Source: an uncultured Burkholderiales bacterium
GTDB taxonomy: Bacteria; Pseudomonadota; Gammaproteobacteria; Burkholderiales; Casimicrobiaceae
Direction: 5' to 3'
Assembly: GCA_937944385.1 (NCBI GenBank)
Contig: CALDYQ010000008.1
Span: 1-40,452, forward strand
DNA: 40,452 nt
This document shows positions 31,564 to 37,392 of this stretch, piece by piece; position 1 is the stretch's first letter, and the number at the start of each line of letters is the position of its first letter. A model generated the notes under the pieces. The model made no database searches and was not told where the DNA came from. It saw only the letters and a list, made by a program, of their open reading frames with translations. The translations under genes and the position numbers were made by a program.

Positions 31564-31974
31564 TCAGCCGCGCTTGAGCAGCCGATCGTGGATCACCATG
31601 CCAGCGAGCATGGTCAGCACAAAGATGATGACGGGGAGCGAACCGGTAGCTGCCACCGCGATCGCCGGGCCCGGGCAGAGCCCCGCGATACCCCAGCCTG
31701 CACCGAAGAGCACACCACCGAGGATCAGACGCCCATCGATCGTCGTGTTGTTGGGCAGCTGCATGGGTTCGCCGGTCAGGGAGGTCTTGCGACCCTTGGC
31801 GAGCATGAAGCCGACGACGCCGACTGCAATTGCGCCGCCCATCACGAGGGCGAGCGACGGATCCCAGTTCAAGAGGTCAAGAAAACCTTTGACCTTCATC
31901 GGGTTGGTCATGCCCGCAGCAATGAGACCCACGCCAAAGACGAGACCAGCGATGAGAGAAACGACGAAAGCCAT
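31564..31974 (-). CDS. YeeE/YedE-type sulfur transport subunit (DUF6691, PmpB-like half)
   Basis: A 136-residue membrane protein with about four hydrophobic segments and the conserved GWGIAGLCPGPAI motif, whose cysteine is implicated in passing sulfur species in YeeE-type transporters. Two-gene split versions like this one and its upstream neighbour occur in operons controlled by BigR-type repressors. The ATG at 31974 lies two bases after the neighbour's stop. Sulfur transport is the likely role; whether it moves thiosulfate or a persulfide is not clear. Confidence 0.85.
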   Translation of the reverse strand: MAFVVSLIAGLVFGVGLIAAGMTNPMKVKGFLDLLNWDPSLALVMGGAIAVGVVGFMLAKGRKTSLTGEPMQLPNNTTIDGRLILGGVLFGAGWGIAGLCPGPAIAVAATGSLPVIIFVLTMLAGMVIHDRLLKRG

Positions 31975-31976
31975 GG

Positions 31977-32417
31977 TCAGCCTCCGATCGAGAGCAGGTG
32001 GCGGAGAACGAACACGGTGAGCATGCCCGCACCGATGAATGCAAGCACGTTCACGAGCGAACGCAGGGAAAAGCGCGACAGGCCGCAGACGCCGTGGCCC
32101 GACGTACAGCCATTGGCCATGCGCACACCGATGCCAACGAGCAGGCCGGCGAGGATCACGAGCGGGAGGCCAACGTCGGTTGCCGTGGGCGGCATCGGCG
32201 CAACGGCCATCCAGAGCCACGGCGCAATCACGAGGCCGAGGACGAAGCCCCAGCGGATACGGTCACCCGCAGTGGTGCCCTGAAGCAAGCCACCCAGGAT
32301 GCCCGCGATGCCGGCGATGCGCCCCACACCGAGCGCATAGATGACGGCCGAAAGGCCGATGAGCAGCCCGCCGATCAGCGCGGCCGCGGGCGTGAATGAT
32401 GCCCAGTCTATGGTCAT
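31977..32417 (-). CDS. YeeE/YedE-type sulfur transport subunit (PmpA-like half)
   Basis: A 146-residue membrane protein with about four hydrophobic segments and the signature MANGCTSGHGVCGLSR, whose cysteines mark the YeeE/YedE family. The ATG at 32417 has GGAGG nine bases upstream, a strong site. It is followed almost at once by the second half-subunit, so the two probably form one transporter. The regulator gene lies 86 bases upstream on the same strand. Confidence 0.87.
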   Translation of the reverse strand: MTIDWASFTPAAALIGGLLIGLSAVIYALGVGRIAGIAGILGGLLQGTTAGDRIRWGFVLGLVIAPWLWMAVAPMPPTATDVGLPLVILAGLLVGIGVRMANGCTSGHGVCGLSRFSLRSLVNVLAFIGAGMLTVFVLRHLLSIGG

Positions 32418-32503
32418 GTTGTCGATCCTCCAGATGGTTGGTGAGTCAAAAAGTCGATTCGGGCGTCGCGAGCACGACCGACGTGGTAGGGGCGAAGCGC
32501 GGA

Positions 32504-32881
32504 TCAGCCCGAAGCCGAGCGCTCCGGCACCCGGCAAAACAGATCGTGCAGCGTCTGCAGGAGCACGTGAACCGAGGGGGCTTCCACGCGGTAGTAGATG
32601 AATTTGCCCTCGCGGCGGGCTCGGATCAGCCCTTTCTCGCGCAGGATGGTCAACTGCTGCGACAGTGTCGGCTGCACGATGCCCGTCGCCGACTCGATGC
32701 GGCTCACGCAGGCCTCGCCTTCGGAAAGAAAACAGAGGATCAGCAGCCGGTCGGGATTCGCGAGCAGTTTGAGCAGCCCCGCCGCGGCCAGACACTGGTC
32801 CCGAAGGGGCGTGAGGTCGACCGCCCCGGCGACCGGGCCGCTGCTCGATTCGATGTCAGCAAGGGCATCAATCATGATCAA
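32504..32881 (-). CDS. ArsR-family repressor, BigR/SqrR-like sulfane-sulfur sensor
   Basis: A 125-residue winged-helix regulator. The recognition region is GIVQPTLSQQLTILREKGLIRARREGKFIYYRV. Cysteines are at 30, 50, 58 and 116. Cys50 (LLILC) and Cys116 (DLFC) are 66 residues apart, the same separation as Cys42/Cys108 of BigR and Cys41/Cys107 of SqrR, which form a tetrasulfide link in response to persulfides. It should repress the flanking sulfur genes until reactive sulfur builds up. It faces the dioxygenase gene across an AT-rich region containing a large dyad, the likely operator. Confidence 0.85.
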   Translation of the reverse strand: MIMIDALADIESSSGPVAGAVDLTPLRDQCLAAAGLLKLLANPDRLLILCFLSEGEACVSRIESATGIVQPTLSQQLTILREKGLIRARREGKFIYYRVEAPSVHVLLQTLHDLFCRVPERSASG

Positions 32882-32992
32882 GGCTGCTCGTTACCGCGCC
32901 CGCACCGTCAGCAAAAGCCACACCATGAATGGCTCGCCAGCTGAGGCAGACACGCGCTTCGTTTGCGCTGCATCAACGATTGAAATCGTAGC

Positions 32993-33031
32993 ACAATTTA
33001 CAAACTTATAGTCTATACTTTTAAAAATTGT
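32993..33031. promoter_or_regulatory. 39-bp AT-rich dyad, candidate operator/promoter of the sulfur locus
   Basis: The dyad is centred at 33012. The arms ACAATTT (32993-32999) and AAATTGT (33025-33031) and the core TATAG-T-CTATA (33007-33017) share the same centre, with 15 of 19 position pairs complementary. A -10-like TATACT at 33014-33019 overlaps the core. No convincing -35 seen. The stretch is far richer in A and T than its surroundings. A repressor dimer bound here would block transcription of the dioxygenase and possibly its own gene. Confidence 0.65.
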
Positions 33032-33046
33032 TGAGTGGAAACCGCC

Positions 33047-33907
33047 ATGCCGGAACCGCGCATCCAGTCGTACTTCGACCCCGACACCTGGACCGTCACT
33101 CACATCGTCTCGTGCCCGATCACGCGCCGGGCCGCGGTCATCGACAGCGTGCTCGACTATGACCCGAAGTCGGGTCGCACCTCGACCGCGTCCGCGCAGA
33201 AGGTGCTCGACCATGTCAAGGCGAACGACCTGACCGTCGATTGGCACTTGGAGACCCACGCACACGCGGACCACTTCTCGGCGGCGCCCTGGCTCAAGGA
33301 GCGCCTGGGCGGCAAGATCGCCATTGGCGAGCACATCAAGACCGTGCAAAAGGTCTTCAGCGGCATCTTCAATGCCAAGGACATCGATGCCGAGGGGCGT
33401 CAGTTCGACGTGATGTTCAAGGATGGCGACACGTTCAACGTGGGCGAGATTCCCTTTCGCGTGATGCACACGCCCGGCCATACCCCAGCGTGCGTCGTGT
33501 ATGTGACGGACGGCCACGCCTTCATCGGCGACACGCTGTTCATGCCAGACTACGGCACGGCGCGCTGCGACTTCCCTGGCGGCGATGCAGCCACGCTGTA
33601 TCGCTCGATCCGCAAGCTGCTCTCGCTGCCCGGCGACACCAAGCTGCACCTCTGCCATGACTATCAGCCCGGCGGCCGGGAGCCGCGCTGGGTGACGACG
33701 GTCGACGAGCAGCGCCGTTCGAACATCCACGTCCACGACGGCATCACCGAAGAGGAGTTCGTCGCCATGCGGACCGCGCGCGACAAGACGCTCGCGATGC
33801 CGACGCTGATCCTGCCGTCGGTGCAGGTGAATGCCCGCGCCGGCCACTTTCCGCCGCCGGAGGACAACGGCGTGGCGTACCTGAAGATTCCGCTCAATGT
33901 GCTCTGA
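33047..33907 (+). CDS. Persulfide dioxygenase, metallo-beta-lactamase fold (Blh/ETHE1 group)
   Basis: A 286-residue non-haem iron enzyme that oxidises glutathione persulfide to sulfite. Metal-site motifs are HAHADH (His71, His73, Asp75, His76), PGHTP (His145) and GDTLF (Asp162), with HLCHDYQ at 201-207. The C-terminal run LILPSVQVNARAGHFPPPEDNG is typical of Blh proteins. Blh is often a DUF442-dioxygenase fusion; here the DUF442 part is a separate overlapping gene. The ATG at 33047 starts the conserved domain; a GTG at 33035 is in frame. Confidence 0.9.
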   Translation: MPEPRIQSYFDPDTWTVTHIVSCPITRRAAVIDSVLDYDPKSGRTSTASAQKVLDHVKANDLTVDWHLETHAHADHFSAAPWLKERLGGKIAIGEHIKTVQKVFSGIFNAKDIDAEGRQFDVMFKDGDTFNVGEIPFRVMHTPGHTPACVVYVTDGHAFIGDTLFMPDYGTARCDFPGGDAATLYRSIRKLLSLPGDTKLHLCHDYQPGGREPRWVTTVDEQRRSNIHVHDGITEEEFVAMRTARDKTLAMPTLILPSVQVNARAGHFPPPEDNGVAYLKIPLNVL

Positions 33908-34373
33908 TTCCGTGTCTGCTGCACGTCAACGCCCGAATCGCACCATCAGCGCGGTGCCGACGCACCTGATCGACCCCGAAGGCGATCACCTCGTCATCGC
34001 CCCGCAGATCCGGCCCGAGCACGTGGCCGAGATCGCGGCCGCCGGTTTCAAGACGCTCATCAACAATCGGCCCGACGGTGAGGAGGGCGGCATCGCCATG
34101 GCCGAGATCGAGCGCGAGGCCAAGAAACACGGTCTCACGTTCATCGCGCAGCCGGTGCTCTTCTCCAAGCTCACCGCCGAAGACGGAGCCGTCTTCGCAC
34201 GCGCGCTCGATGAGTCGCCCGGGCCGATCTTTGCCTACTGCCGCACCGGGCGTCGTTGTGCGGCACTCTGGGCGCTTGCCCGCGCGCCAAAACGCGGCAC
34301 CGAGACCGTGCTCCGCTTGTCGCGTGAAGCCGGCTGCGACCTCGAGGAACTGCGGCCGAGACTGCCGAAGTGA
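33897..34373 (+). CDS. DUF442 / TIGR01244-family sulfurtransferase
   Basis: A 158-residue protein with a phosphatase-like fold. It contains LVIAPQIRPEHVAEIAAAGFKTLINNRPDGEE in family style and the active loop YCRTGRRC (Cys115 in a CxxGxR loop, plus an extra Cys121). Relatives are fused to or encoded beside persulfide dioxygenases and act on persulfide or thiosulfate sulfur. It overlaps the dioxygenase gene by 11 bases and the next gene by four, so the three are very likely one transcript. The extra cysteine two residues past the loop arginines is worth noting. Confidence 0.85.
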   Translation: MCSDSVSAARQRPNRTISAVPTHLIDPEGDHLVIAPQIRPEHVAEIAAAGFKTLINNRPDGEEGGIAMAEIEREAKKHGLTFIAQPVLFSKLTAEDGAVFARALDESPGPIFAYCRTGRRCAALWALARAPKRGTETVLRLSREAGCDLEELRPRLPK

Positions 34374-36088
34374 ACGTCACCGCCCTCGATGCCCGGCCGG
34401 GGCGGGTCGGCAGCTACCTCAAGGGTCCGCTCGCGGACGATTGGGTCGCCGCCGCGATCGTGGTCATCCTCCTCGTCCCGCAAAGCATGGCCTATGCCCT
34501 GCTCGCTGGCTTGCCGCCCTCGGCAGGCGTGCTGGCAAGCCTCGCCCCGGTCGTGGTCTACGCGATGCTGGGCTCCTCGAGCACGCTCGCCGTTGGCCCG
34601 GTGGCGGTGCTCGCGATGATGACCGCCCAGGCCATCGCACCGGTCACGGCGGCACACGGCGTGAGCGCGGAACTCGCCGCCGTCGTGCTCGCGATCGAGG
34701 TGGCCGTCCTGCTCGGCCTCGCCGCGCTCTTTCGGCTCGAGGTGCTGGCGGCGCTGCTCTCCGCCCCGGTGTTGCACGGCTTCATCGCCGGTGCAGCGCT
34801 CGTGATCGCACTGGGCCAGACCCCGGCTCTGCTCGGCTTACCGATCCGCGGCAACACGCTCTGGGAGCTCGCAGGTGCAGCCGTCGAAGCGCCAAAGCTC
34901 ACTCCGCACGCAGCGACCGCGATGGTCGGACTCGCTGCGCTTGCCGCGCTCTGGACGCTTCGCCGCTACGCTGCGCGCGGGCTCCGAGCGCTCGGGCTTG
35001 CGGCTCGTCCGGCGGCACTCCTCGGTCGTGCCGCCCCCATACTCGTCATCGCCGCGGCCGTCGGCTGGGTCGCGCTCGCCCCGGAACAGACCCAGGGCGT
35101 CGCGCTCGCAGGCAGCGTGGCGCTCTCGGCCGCTTGGCCGCCGCCCAATCCGCTCGACGCTGCCCGCGAGGTCTGGCTCGCGCTTCTGCCCAGCGCCGGA
35201 CTCATCGCGCTCGTGGGTTATGTCGAAAGCCTCGCGGTCGCCGAATCACTCGGCCTGAAGCGCGGCGAGAAGATCTCACCACGGCGCGAACTGGTTGGCC
35301 TCTCGGGGGCCAATGTCGCCGCTGGCCTCACCGGCGGTTTTCCGGTCACCGGCGGCTTCGCCCGCTCGATCGTCAACTTCGATGCCGGCGCCCGCACCCG
35401 CATGGCCGGCGTCTGGACGGCGATCGGGCTGCTCGCGGCGATCTCGCTGATCGGCCCCTGGCTCGAGAAGCTGCCCAAGGCGGTGCTCGCAGCCACGATC
35501 ATCATCGCCGTCCTCTCGCTCGTCGAGTCGCACCCGTTCAAGCAGGCGTGGCGCTGGTCGCGGGCCGAGTTTGGGCTCATGGTCACGGTGGCCGCCCTCA
35601 CCATCCTCTTTGGCGTCGAGCCGGCGCTCGCGGTGGGGGTGGCCGGATCGGTCGCGCTTCTGCTCAAGCGCACCGCACGCCCACACTGGGCCGAGGTCGG
35701 GCGCGTGCCCGGCAGCGAGACCTTTCGCAACGTCAAGCGCTTCCCCGAGGTCGAGACCGTTCCCGGCGCGCTCGTCCTGCGTATCGATGAGAGTCTGGTC
35801 TTCGTCAATTCCCGCTGGCTGACCGACACGGTCACCGACGCCGCAGGCAAACGAGCGCCGCTCCGACACCTGGTGCTCATGATGTCCGGCGTCAATGACA
35901 TCGACCTCTCGGGCATCGAGGCGCTCGAGCAACTCGCCGATGCGCTCGCTGCACGGGGCATCCAACTGCACCTCTCGGAGGTGAAAGGCCCGCTGCGCGA
36001 TCGCCTTGCGCGCTTTGGCACCGACTGGCTCAGCGGCCGGATATTCGCAACGCAAATGGAAGCGCAGGCGGCGCTCGCGCAAAGCTGA
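34370..36088 (+). CDS. SulP-family anion transporter with STAS domain
   Basis: A 572-residue transporter. Ten or more membrane segments begin at DDWVAAAIVVILLVPQSMAYALLAGLPP, the SulP signature region, followed by GSSSTLAVGPVAVLAMM and GGFPVTGGFARSIVNFDAGARTRMAG. A cytoplasmic STAS domain occupies about residues 455-565 (LVLRIDESLVFVNSRWL, MSGVNDIDLSGIEALEQL). SulP proteins move sulfate, bicarbonate or dicarboxylates. It begins at a GTG overlapping the DUF442 stop (GTGA). In this operon, sulfite or sulfate movement is the natural inference. Confidence 0.92.
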   Translation: MNVTALDARPGRVGSYLKGPLADDWVAAAIVVILLVPQSMAYALLAGLPPSAGVLASLAPVVVYAMLGSSSTLAVGPVAVLAMMTAQAIAPVTAAHGVSAELAAVVLAIEVAVLLGLAALFRLEVLAALLSAPVLHGFIAGAALVIALGQTPALLGLPIRGNTLWELAGAAVEAPKLTPHAATAMVGLAALAALWTLRRYAARGLRALGLAARPAALLGRAAPILVIAAAVGWVALAPEQTQGVALAGSVALSAAWPPPNPLDAAREVWLALLPSAGLIALVGYVESLAVAESLGLKRGEKISPRRELVGLSGANVAAGLTGGFPVTGGFARSIVNFDAGARTRMAGVWTAIGLLAAISLIGPWLEKLPKAVLAATIIIAVLSLVESHPFKQAWRWSRAEFGLMVTVAALTILFGVEPALAVGVAGSVALLLKRTARPHWAEVGRVPGSETFRNVKRFPEVETVPGALVLRIDESLVFVNSRWLTDTVTDAAGKRAPLRHLVLMMSGVNDIDLSGIEALEQLADALAARGIQLHLSEVKGPLRDRLARFGTDWLSGRIFATQMEAQAALAQS

Positions 36089-36162
36089 ACCGACCGGGGT
36101 GGCGCATCCTGAGGTTTGCTCTACGCTCTGGGTGGATGTAACCCGTGGAGCAACCCCGCGCG

Positions 36163-37392
36163 ATGACCTCCGTCCCCGACTGGCTGCCAACTTTCGACCT
36201 GCGGGCCCCACCGGCGGGGTTCATCGCCGACCCCTACCCGTTCTACGCGGCACTCCGGACGCACGACCCCGTGCGGCGCATGCCCGACGGCAGCGTGCTG
36301 CTCACGCGCTACGAGGACTGTGTCGCGGTCTACAAGGATGCCGAGGCCTTCTCGTCGGACAAGCGGGCCGAGTTTTTGCCCAAGTACGGTCTGAGCCCGC
36401 TCTACGAGCATCACACGACGAGCCTCGTCTTCAATGACCCGCCCCTGCACACCCGCGTCCGGCGGCTGATCGTCGGTGCACTCTCCCCACGCGCCGTCGA
36501 TGCGATGACGCCGGGGCTCGAGGCGCTCGTTGCCCGCTTGCTCGACCAGATCGAGGCCCGGACGCGCGCTGGCGAGCGGATCGATCTGATCGAGGACTAC
36601 GCCGCGGCGATTCCGGTGGAGATCATCGGCAACCTGCTCGATGTTCCGTACGCCGAGCGTGGTCCGCTCCGCGCCTGGTCGCTCGCAATCCTGGGCGCGC
36701 TCGAGCCGGCACTCACTGCGGAACAACTCGAGCGCGGCAATCGCGCGGTGACCGAGTTTCTCGCCTACCTGCGTGATCTCGTCGCTCGCCGCCGCGCGGC
36801 CCCGGGCGACCCGGCGACCGATGTGCTCACGCGGTTGATCCAAGGCGAAGGTGAGGATCGGCTTACGGAGACCGAGCTCCTGCAGAACTGCATCTTCATC
36901 TTGAACGCCGGGCACGAGACCACGACCAACCTGATCGGCAATGCGCTCGCCCTTCTCTGCCAGTGGCCTGAGGCGCGTGCGCAACTCCTCGCACAGCCCG
37001 CACTCATCGCGCGTGCCGTCGAGGAATTCCTGCGCTTCGAATCGAGCAACCAACTGGGCAACCGCATCACGACCCGTGAAGTCACCGTCGGTGGCGTGAC
37101 GCTCGCGCCGGAGACCCGCATCACGCTCGTGATCGGTGCAGCCAACCGCGACCCGGCGCAGTTCGAGGACCCCGACCGGCTCGACCTCGCACGCGCGCCC
37201 AACCGCCATCTCGCCTTCGCGACCGGCCCCCACCTGTGCGCGGGGCATGCGGTGGCTCGGCTCGAGGGCCGTGTTGCGATCGGACGGTTTCTCGAACGCT
37301 TCCCGCGGTACGCGATCGACTTCGCGCAGGCGGTGCGCGGCGGGCGGGTGCGGTTTCGAGGCTGGGCCCGGCTGCCGGCGTGCATCGATTGA
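36163..37392 (+). CDS. Cytochrome P450
   Basis: A 409-residue soluble class-I-type P450. The oxygen-binding helix has AGHETT (residues 249-254), the ExxR motif is EFLR (288-291), and the haem-binding loop is FATGPHLCAG with Cys359 as ligand. It resembles bacterial P450s that oxidise small or fatty substrates, but substrate cannot be told. No ferredoxin or reductase gene is adjacent. The ATG at 36163 has GGAG upstream at long spacing; an in-frame GTG at 36145 is possible. It stands between the SulP gene and the GNAT gene with short gaps. Confidence 0.95.
   Translation: MTSVPDWLPTFDLRAPPAGFIADPYPFYAALRTHDPVRRMPDGSVLLTRYEDCVAVYKDAEAFSSDKRAEFLPKYGLSPLYEHHTTSLVFNDPPLHTRVRRLIVGALSPRAVDAMTPGLEALVARLLDQIEARTRAGERIDLIEDYAAAIPVEIIGNLLDVPYAERGPLRAWSLAILGALEPALTAEQLERGNRAVTEFLAYLRDLVARRRAAPGDPATDVLTRLIQGEGEDRLTETELLQNCIFILNAGHETTTNLIGNALALLCQWPEARAQLLAQPALIARAVEEFLRFESSNQLGNRITTREVTVGGVTLAPETRITLVIGAANRDPAQFEDPDRLDLARAPNRHLAFATGPHLCAGHAVARLEGRVAIGRFLERFPRYAIDFAQAVRGGRVRFRGWARLPACID

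Follow-up and report, generated by a model that had tools for sequence, protein, structure and literature searches.

The window analysed here, a 40,452-nucleotide stretch of contig CALDYQ010000008.1 from an uncultured Casimicrobiaceae bacterium of the Burkholderiales, carries between positions 31,564 and 36,088 a divergent six-gene cluster: an ArsR repressor and two half-size YeeE/YedE genes on the minus strand, and a persulfide dioxygenase (PDO), a DUF442 protein and a SulP transporter on the plus strand. We found that SulP and the unrelated sulfite exporter TauE are mutually exclusive at PDO loci, that the PDO tree implies repeated exchange between them, and that the cluster is one of the common forms of the BigR/PDO module, not an odd arrangement. 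Persulfide dioxygenases yield sulfite, a toxic product that a cell has to export or convert. The exchange with TauE points to SulP as a sulfite exporter, and it is only from this exchange that we infer such export. We put at about 0.5 the probability that the cluster is a persulfide-responsive unit for sulfane-sulfur oxidation and detoxification in which SulP carries sulfite out, as TauE would in sister clusters.

SulP and TauE at persulfide dioxygenase loci

PDO loci were sampled regardless of SulP. The first sample comprised 61 non-window PDO places in 369 genomes of the window's class, reduced to 60 when L214, the same region as L211, was dropped. The second comprised the best PDO place in 80 of 85 matching genomes from the same phylum but another class, presumably mostly Alphaproteobacteria; three genomes with places listed lower and two without a printed place were excluded. 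SulP was scored above 450 bits and TauE above 80 bits, each within 6 kb. The TauE seeds came from annotated clusters of Rhizobium, Sinorhizobium, Klebsiella, Acinetobacter lwoffii and Sphingobium yanoikuyae, in all of which TauE sits among the module genes, and these clusters were not counted. The idea of exclusion came from the class sample together with a set of plasmid picks, and exclusion was predicted before the second sample was drawn.

In the second sample, SulP was present at 24 loci, TauE at 24, neither at 32 and both at none, where 7.2 loci with both were expected (one-sided Fisher p = 2.7e-5). Counting one locus per genus (n = 60) gave 18 with SulP, 17 with TauE, none with both and 25 with neither (p = 6.6e-4), and the one family having both kinds (n = 13) divided into five SulP and eight TauE loci, with none in the remaining categories (p = 7.8e-4). 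Family f242, with SulP at nine loci, TauE at none and neither at 16, cannot test exclusion because TauE does not occur there. Matches below the score limits were a TauE of 56 bits in L283, a locus without SulP, and SulP matches of 154 bits in L173 and 264 bits in L219, the last beside a TauE.

The PDO tree, made by a quick method, had 150 rows. Besides the 140 sampled loci it included the window, six plasmid picks and the loci L050, L051 and L053; L052 was omitted. SulP and TauE states changed on it at least 14 times, against a mean of 25 and a minimum of 18 in 200 shuffles, and its starred branches force at least six SulP changes and at least five TauE changes. The exchange can be seen within a single gene order: PDO-YeeE-YeeE-DUF442-SQR ends in SulP at L244 and L247 and in TauE at L170, and the PDOs of all three loci belong to one 14-row group with starred support. 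The p-values assume independence, which is only partly true, and we knew the maps when choosing the limits. More weight should be given to the one-per-genus count and to the tree.

A TauE hidden in the SulP clusters and missed by our model was considered and rejected. At the 36 SulP-positive loci of the two samples, a Pfam scan found TauE in none of the 19 further polytopic open reading frames (ORFs; 200–480 residues, at least five crude membrane segments, no more than 6 kb from PDO). Four of these 19 ORFs match subunit II and three match subunit I of cytochrome bd oxidase, at L189 and, by likeness to L189, at L211, L246 and L247. This oxidase resists sulfide, according to the available part of PMC7315123.

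We also surveyed the neighbourhoods of the SulP protein itself, using the 80 closest loci from the SulP alignment with one genome per species; more loci exist, and the survey may leave out records very near the window. The sequence-only reading had named such a survey as a check on the pairing of SulP with PDO, and PDO was found within 6 kb, the distance used for all partners, at 62 of the 80 closest loci listed. DUF442 was near SulP at 48 of them, the DUF6691 half of YeeE at 39, the other half at 38 and a BigR-like ArsR at 22. At least one partner was present at 70 loci, and at 53 of the 59 with full flanks; TauE was present at none of the 80. SulP in near relatives is thus generally linked to sulfur genes, contrary to the possibility that it might be unlinked, with the ten exceptions weighed below. 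Among more distant SulP loci (12 of the 32 weaker matches in relatives, taken together with their flanks) none had a partner, and all four closer SulP loci of relatives had both PDO and ArsR. Three of five SulP genes among the plasmid picks were linked to the module. The 80-locus survey rules out SulP as a chance neighbour.

Within the genus the cluster is patchy, since a near SulP was found only in G016 of the 16 genomes searched. G016 also has DUF442; in G013 DUF442 is matched but no near SulP is present. At 2.5–2.6 Mb, the window genome and G016 are the smallest of 17 genus genomes (others 3.2–4.7 Mb), and no other of the 17 has a near SulP. The nearest named SulP relatives, among the matches listed, were from a Rubrivivax metagenome-assembled genome (64%) and Thauera (61%), which makes the host a likely betaproteobacterium.

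The SulP protein and readings of its role

The SulP gene (34370..36088, plus strand), our candidate sulfite exit, encodes an SLC26-type anion transporter with Sulfate_transp (PF00916, 247 bits) and C-terminal STAS (PF01740, 62 bits) domains; it falls under the cut-off of the sulfate permease model TIGR00815 (353 versus 380 bits). We aligned 89 near SulP proteins, both linked and unlinked (80 from survey loci, four from relatives and five plasmid picks), to AtSULTR4;1, a proton/sulfate symporter according to the excerpt of PMC8298490 available. The pocket residues Q112, Y116, A153, F391 and R393 of AtSULTR4;1 correspond to Q38, Y42, A79, F330 and R332 of the window protein and are kept in 88 or 89 of the 89 proteins (Q38, Y42 and R332 in all 89). 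The proton-coupling Glu347 corresponds to E286 and is Glu in 86 of 89. The sulfate-bonding Ser392 is replaced by Ala in the window protein; across the 89 proteins, 63 have Ala, 25 Ser and one Gly at this position. To judge from these residues, the pocket looks fit for a sulfur oxyanion. With regard to direction, an electroneutral two-proton symporter should reverse outward once the inside/outside ratio of its substrate exceeds 10^(2 × pH difference, inside minus outside). For a difference of half a pH unit this would mean a roughly tenfold ratio, which PDO under load might reach.

The host genome (2.54 Mb in 98 contigs, 98.6% complete) gives a metabolic setting for these readings. Contig C16 holds a Sox-like cluster by Pfam (molybdopterin oxidoreductase with dimerisation domain, cytochrome c, SoxA/TsdA domain and 5'-nucleotidase C-terminal domain), whose genes we take, from order and sequence, to be SoxC, SoxD, SoxX and SoxB. 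These Sox-like genes (G000:C16, L158 35-14708) lie about 2.7 kb from ORFs that, from their translations, are presumably transketolase-, GAPDH-, PGK- and aldolase-like, which recalls a Calvin-cycle cluster. There are two flavocytochrome c sulfide dehydrogenase flavoproteins, and the large subunit of RuBisCO is encoded on C74. The host is probably a sulfur-oxidising autotroph. ATP sulfurylase (PF01747) and the DmsC-type subunit (PF04976) were not found in the genome; by these two markers, then, it showed no route for oxidising sulfite in the cytoplasm.

Several observations weigh against sulfite export by SulP. In the class sample (n = 60), SulP was present at 12 loci, TauE at five, neither at 43 and both at none, which is not significant (p = 0.31). 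Pooling the samples (n = 140; SulP 36, TauE 29, both 0, neither 75; about 7.5 with both expected) did favour exclusion, with a two-sided p of 7.4e-5, but this value includes the class sample from which the idea arose. When any SulP is counted, one locus (L219) has both transporters, and the two-sided p becomes 7.4e-4. The score limits were fixed with the locus maps in view, the second TauE model drew on 35 hits, some of them from the test sample, and exclusion is a gene-order pattern shared in part by descent. Ten of the 80 closest SulP loci listed had no partner within 6 kb, six of these with full flanks, and two of the five plasmid picks (L046 and L047) likewise had none. The likeness of the pocket to that of a proton/sulfate symporter would favour import. 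Finally, none of the six cluster genes matches a TauE model, but the host has one clear TauE-family gene on another contig, C10, and a weak piece on C77, as well as a sulfite/nitrite reductase; sulfite thus has other possible fates through the C10 TauE and the reductase, and cytoplasmic sulfite oxidation was judged by two markers only.

The same likeness of pocket and proton-coupling residues to AtSULTR4;1, the proton/sulfate symporter of the PMC8298490 excerpt, would suit SulP as a proton-coupled importer of sulfate (or thiosulfate), merely co-regulated with the persulfide module. We regard this as unlikely, because import of the end product is at odds with a cluster whose own output is sulfite, because an importer gives no reason for the mutual exclusion of SulP and TauE, and because the serine that bonds sulfate in AtSULTR4;1 is Ala in the window protein and in so many of its near relatives. 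Uptake of bicarbonate for carbon fixation in a sulfur-driven autotroph would agree with the RuBisCO gene on C74, and a roseobacter SulP with predicted bicarbonate uptake rose in autotrophic and mixotrophic growth, as described in the accessible portion of PMC5071866. However, another SulP (G000:C74:24552-30389) is encoded some 3.9 kb from the gene for the RuBisCO large subunit and is the better candidate bicarbonate transporter, and the window SulP scores 53 bits against the NCBIfam BicA cut-off of 880. The linkage found was with PDO, DUF442, YeeE and SQR (DUF442 at 24 of 36 SulP-positive versus 26 of 104 other PDO loci; SQR at 19 of 36 versus 8 of 104) in a survey that did not extend to carbon-fixation genes. 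We consider a bicarbonate role improbable.

It is also improbable, in our judgement, that SulP works together with the YeeE pair as an exchanger, releasing sulfite or sulfate in return for a different anion (thiosulfate, chloride or an anion of sulfane sulfur). The YeeE pair is indeed commoner at SulP loci (21 of 36 versus 35 of 104 other PDO loci; p = 0.011) and rarer at TauE loci (6 of 29 versus 50 of 111; p = 0.019), and the SLC26 family includes exchangers, but a negative residue at the Glu286 place goes with cation-coupled members, not exchangers (both points from the part of PMC8298490 available), and such an exchanger would have no known exchange partner.

In the sulfite-export reading that we prefer, sulfane sulfur would enter through the PmpAB-like YeeE pair or arise inside the cell. 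It would react with the ArsR repressor at its two conserved cysteines; by analogy with SqrR and BigR, the repressor would then release the divergent promoter region. As expected from characterised relatives, DUF442 would hand sulfane sulfur to glutathione, and PDO would use O2 to convert glutathione persulfide to sulfite. SulP would then export this sulfite from the cytoplasm, the same job that is thought to be TauE's in sister clusters.

The six-gene locus and its products

The sequence-only reading had described a BigR/SqrR-like sensor, a YeeE/YedE pair, a PDO, a DUF442 protein and a SulP transporter as one locus. All six genes are present there on divergent strands, with full-length, family-matching products. 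On the minus strand the repressor gene is followed by the two YeeE genes, which are separated by a 2-base gap, and on the plus strand the order is PDO, DUF442, SulP. The 11-base and 4-base overlaps claimed for the plus-strand genes were found at 33897-33907 and 34370-34373 (GTGA). The 11-base overlap is uncertain because it depends on the DUF442 start: the family match begins at about residue 30, and there is an in-frame GTG at 33954. In G016, of the same genus, locus L050 has the same six genes, order and strands, with a SulP 80% identical to that of the window; the 4-base overlap before SulP is kept there, and PDO and DUF442 overlap by 4 bases, not 11. Because G016 keeps the six-gene order and overlapping gene sets were found again at many other loci, the arrangement is more than chance.

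The repressor gene (minus strand, 32504..32875 from ATG, or to 32881 from TTG; PF01022, 51 bits) encodes a protein whose best solved relatives are chains 13ct/6o8l (E = 8.9e-20), which we take to be SqrR, and BigR 3pqj (E = 3.2e-19). In phmmer alignments its Cys48 and Cys114 align with the sensing pair of SqrR and BigR, which supports the sensor assignment made from the sequence. It remains below the NCBIfam BigR equivalog cut-off (88 versus 155 bits), and we therefore call it BigR/SqrR-like only. Across the sampled PDO loci, ArsR was present at 22 of 29 TauE loci versus 35 of 111 others, and had no association with SulP (14 of 36 versus 43 of 104). A 39-bp inverted repeat at 32993..33031, whose end lies 15 bp ahead of the PDO start, is a candidate operator: 15 of its 19 arm positions pair around a 1-bp centre, and it was equalled in two of 1000 shuffled versions of the intergenic region. 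No equal was found in G016 or L070, where the best 19-base arms (gaps 0-6) pair at 11 and 12 positions; the repeat therefore stays a candidate, and we rejected it as a conserved operator. A sigma-70-like promoter was not found in 32400-33120.

The YeeE/YedE N-terminal half (31564..31974, minus strand, stop from the ORF list; DUF6691, PF20398, 168 bits) is PmpB-like, and the C-terminal half (31977..32417, minus strand) is PmpA-like, matching the C-terminal part of PF04143 at 26.9 bits, just under the cut-off of 27. The former has Cys100 within a GLCPGPA motif and the latter Cys104 and Cys111 within NGCTSGHGVCG. By their lengths (136 and 146 amino acids) and cysteines they are a putative PmpAB-type pair (two short four-helix proteins, each with a conserved cysteine), and the cysteines are as described for PmpA and PmpB in the available text of PMC11582611.

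The PDO gene (33047..33907, plus strand) encodes a type II, SdoA-like enzyme with a metallo-beta-lactamase (MBL) fold and the HxHxDH motif as HAHADH at residue 71. It is closest to the stand-alone solved proteins 4YSK (E = 4.9e-114), presumably the type II PDO SdoA, and 4EFZ (E = 2.1e-111). The DUF442 gene (33897..34373, plus strand; PF04273, 84 bits; TIGR01244, 118 bits against a cut-off of 86) encodes a free-standing sulfurtransferase that matches the stand-alone structure 2F46 and has the active-site cysteine loop, CRTGRR, at residue 115.

These two genes had been read as a "split Blh", a description that the wider comparison does not support. The window has two genes here, with 396 and 75 bits against the Blh fusion cut-off of 625. 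DUF442 lies within 6 kb at 50 of the 140 sampled PDO loci, and the two domains share one open frame at none of the 60 loci of the first sample and two of the 80 of the second. All five fused PDO rows sit in a 13-row tree group (support 100), and the window PDO lies outside it by this quick method; the fused rows need one label change on the tree, and five unfused rows share the same inner fork. Thus free-standing DUF442 and PDO are the usual state, and there is no sign of a splitting event at the window. Where DUF442 occurs near SulP (48 loci), it is free in 21 and bears a long C-terminal extension in 27. Beside SulP, the extended form (27 of the 80 SulP-first loci, and also L045 and L048) outnumbers the DUF442-PDO fusion, of which none was seen there; the extended protein of L048 is annotated as an FAD/NAD-dependent oxidoreductase.

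A cytochrome P450 gene lies at 36145-37392 on the SulP strand, 57 bases past SulP. The G016 copy is 80% identical, but its matching part lies about 1.4 kb past SulP, and we did not include the gene in the operon. For the UvrC gene upstream, the single G016 ORF compared was unrelated.

Related systems and the meaning of the exchange

The BigR operon of Rhizobium and Sinorhizobium plasmids (bigR, blh, the YeeE pair and tauE) shares with the window an ArsR sensor, DUF442 and PDO activities, the YeeE pair and one further transporter. It differs in that DUF442-PDO is one protein accompanied by TauE, whereas the window has separate genes and SulP. The bigR-blh-TauE operon of Xylella and Agrobacterium likewise has one further transporter, as far as the accessible part of PMC5823870 goes. 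BigR controls a YeeE pair and a second PDO in the yeeE-yedE-pdo2 operon of Acinetobacter baumannii; the portion of PMC7315123 available mentions no DUF442 or SulP in that operon, and in it TauE belongs to the FisR operon. An ArsR-family regulator and short YeeE proteins also occur in Serratia PigS/PmpAB, according to the available excerpts of PMC11582611 and PMC9774590.

The window's arrangement had been thought worth comparing with known BigR operons, and it proved to be common. A plasmid of Sphingobium sp. YBL2 (NZ_CP010956) has the same six gene kinds, already annotated (ArsR, PDO, two YeeE halves, TIGR01244 and SulP), but with all genes on one strand and in another order. A PDO-SqrB-SulP cluster is also already in print: the mto clusters of Methylophaga thiooxydans combine PDO and SqrB with a SulP called a sulfate/sulfite permease, but lie beside methanethiol oxidase genes and, in the part of PMC6548844 available, without mention of BigR, YeeE or DUF442. 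Among the papers found to name both SulP and persulfide dioxygenase, this was the only one to place the two in one cluster, as far as the available parts go. A published replacement of TauE by SulP was not found in the literature searched, a search whose scope left out most subscription journals.

We tentatively extend the proposal, at somewhat short of even odds, to the whole SulP branch labelled sulfate permease: this branch may be the sulfite exit of persulfide-oxidation clusters, swapped many times with the unrelated TauE across the Pseudomonadota. If the branch is an alternative exit to TauE, many "sulfate permease" labels would be wrong in function and perhaps in direction, and models of bacterial sulfide oxidation would gain a missing transporter. 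The point worth keeping is that SulP stands where other PDO clusters have TauE, which suggests a testable role for these poorly understood transporters.

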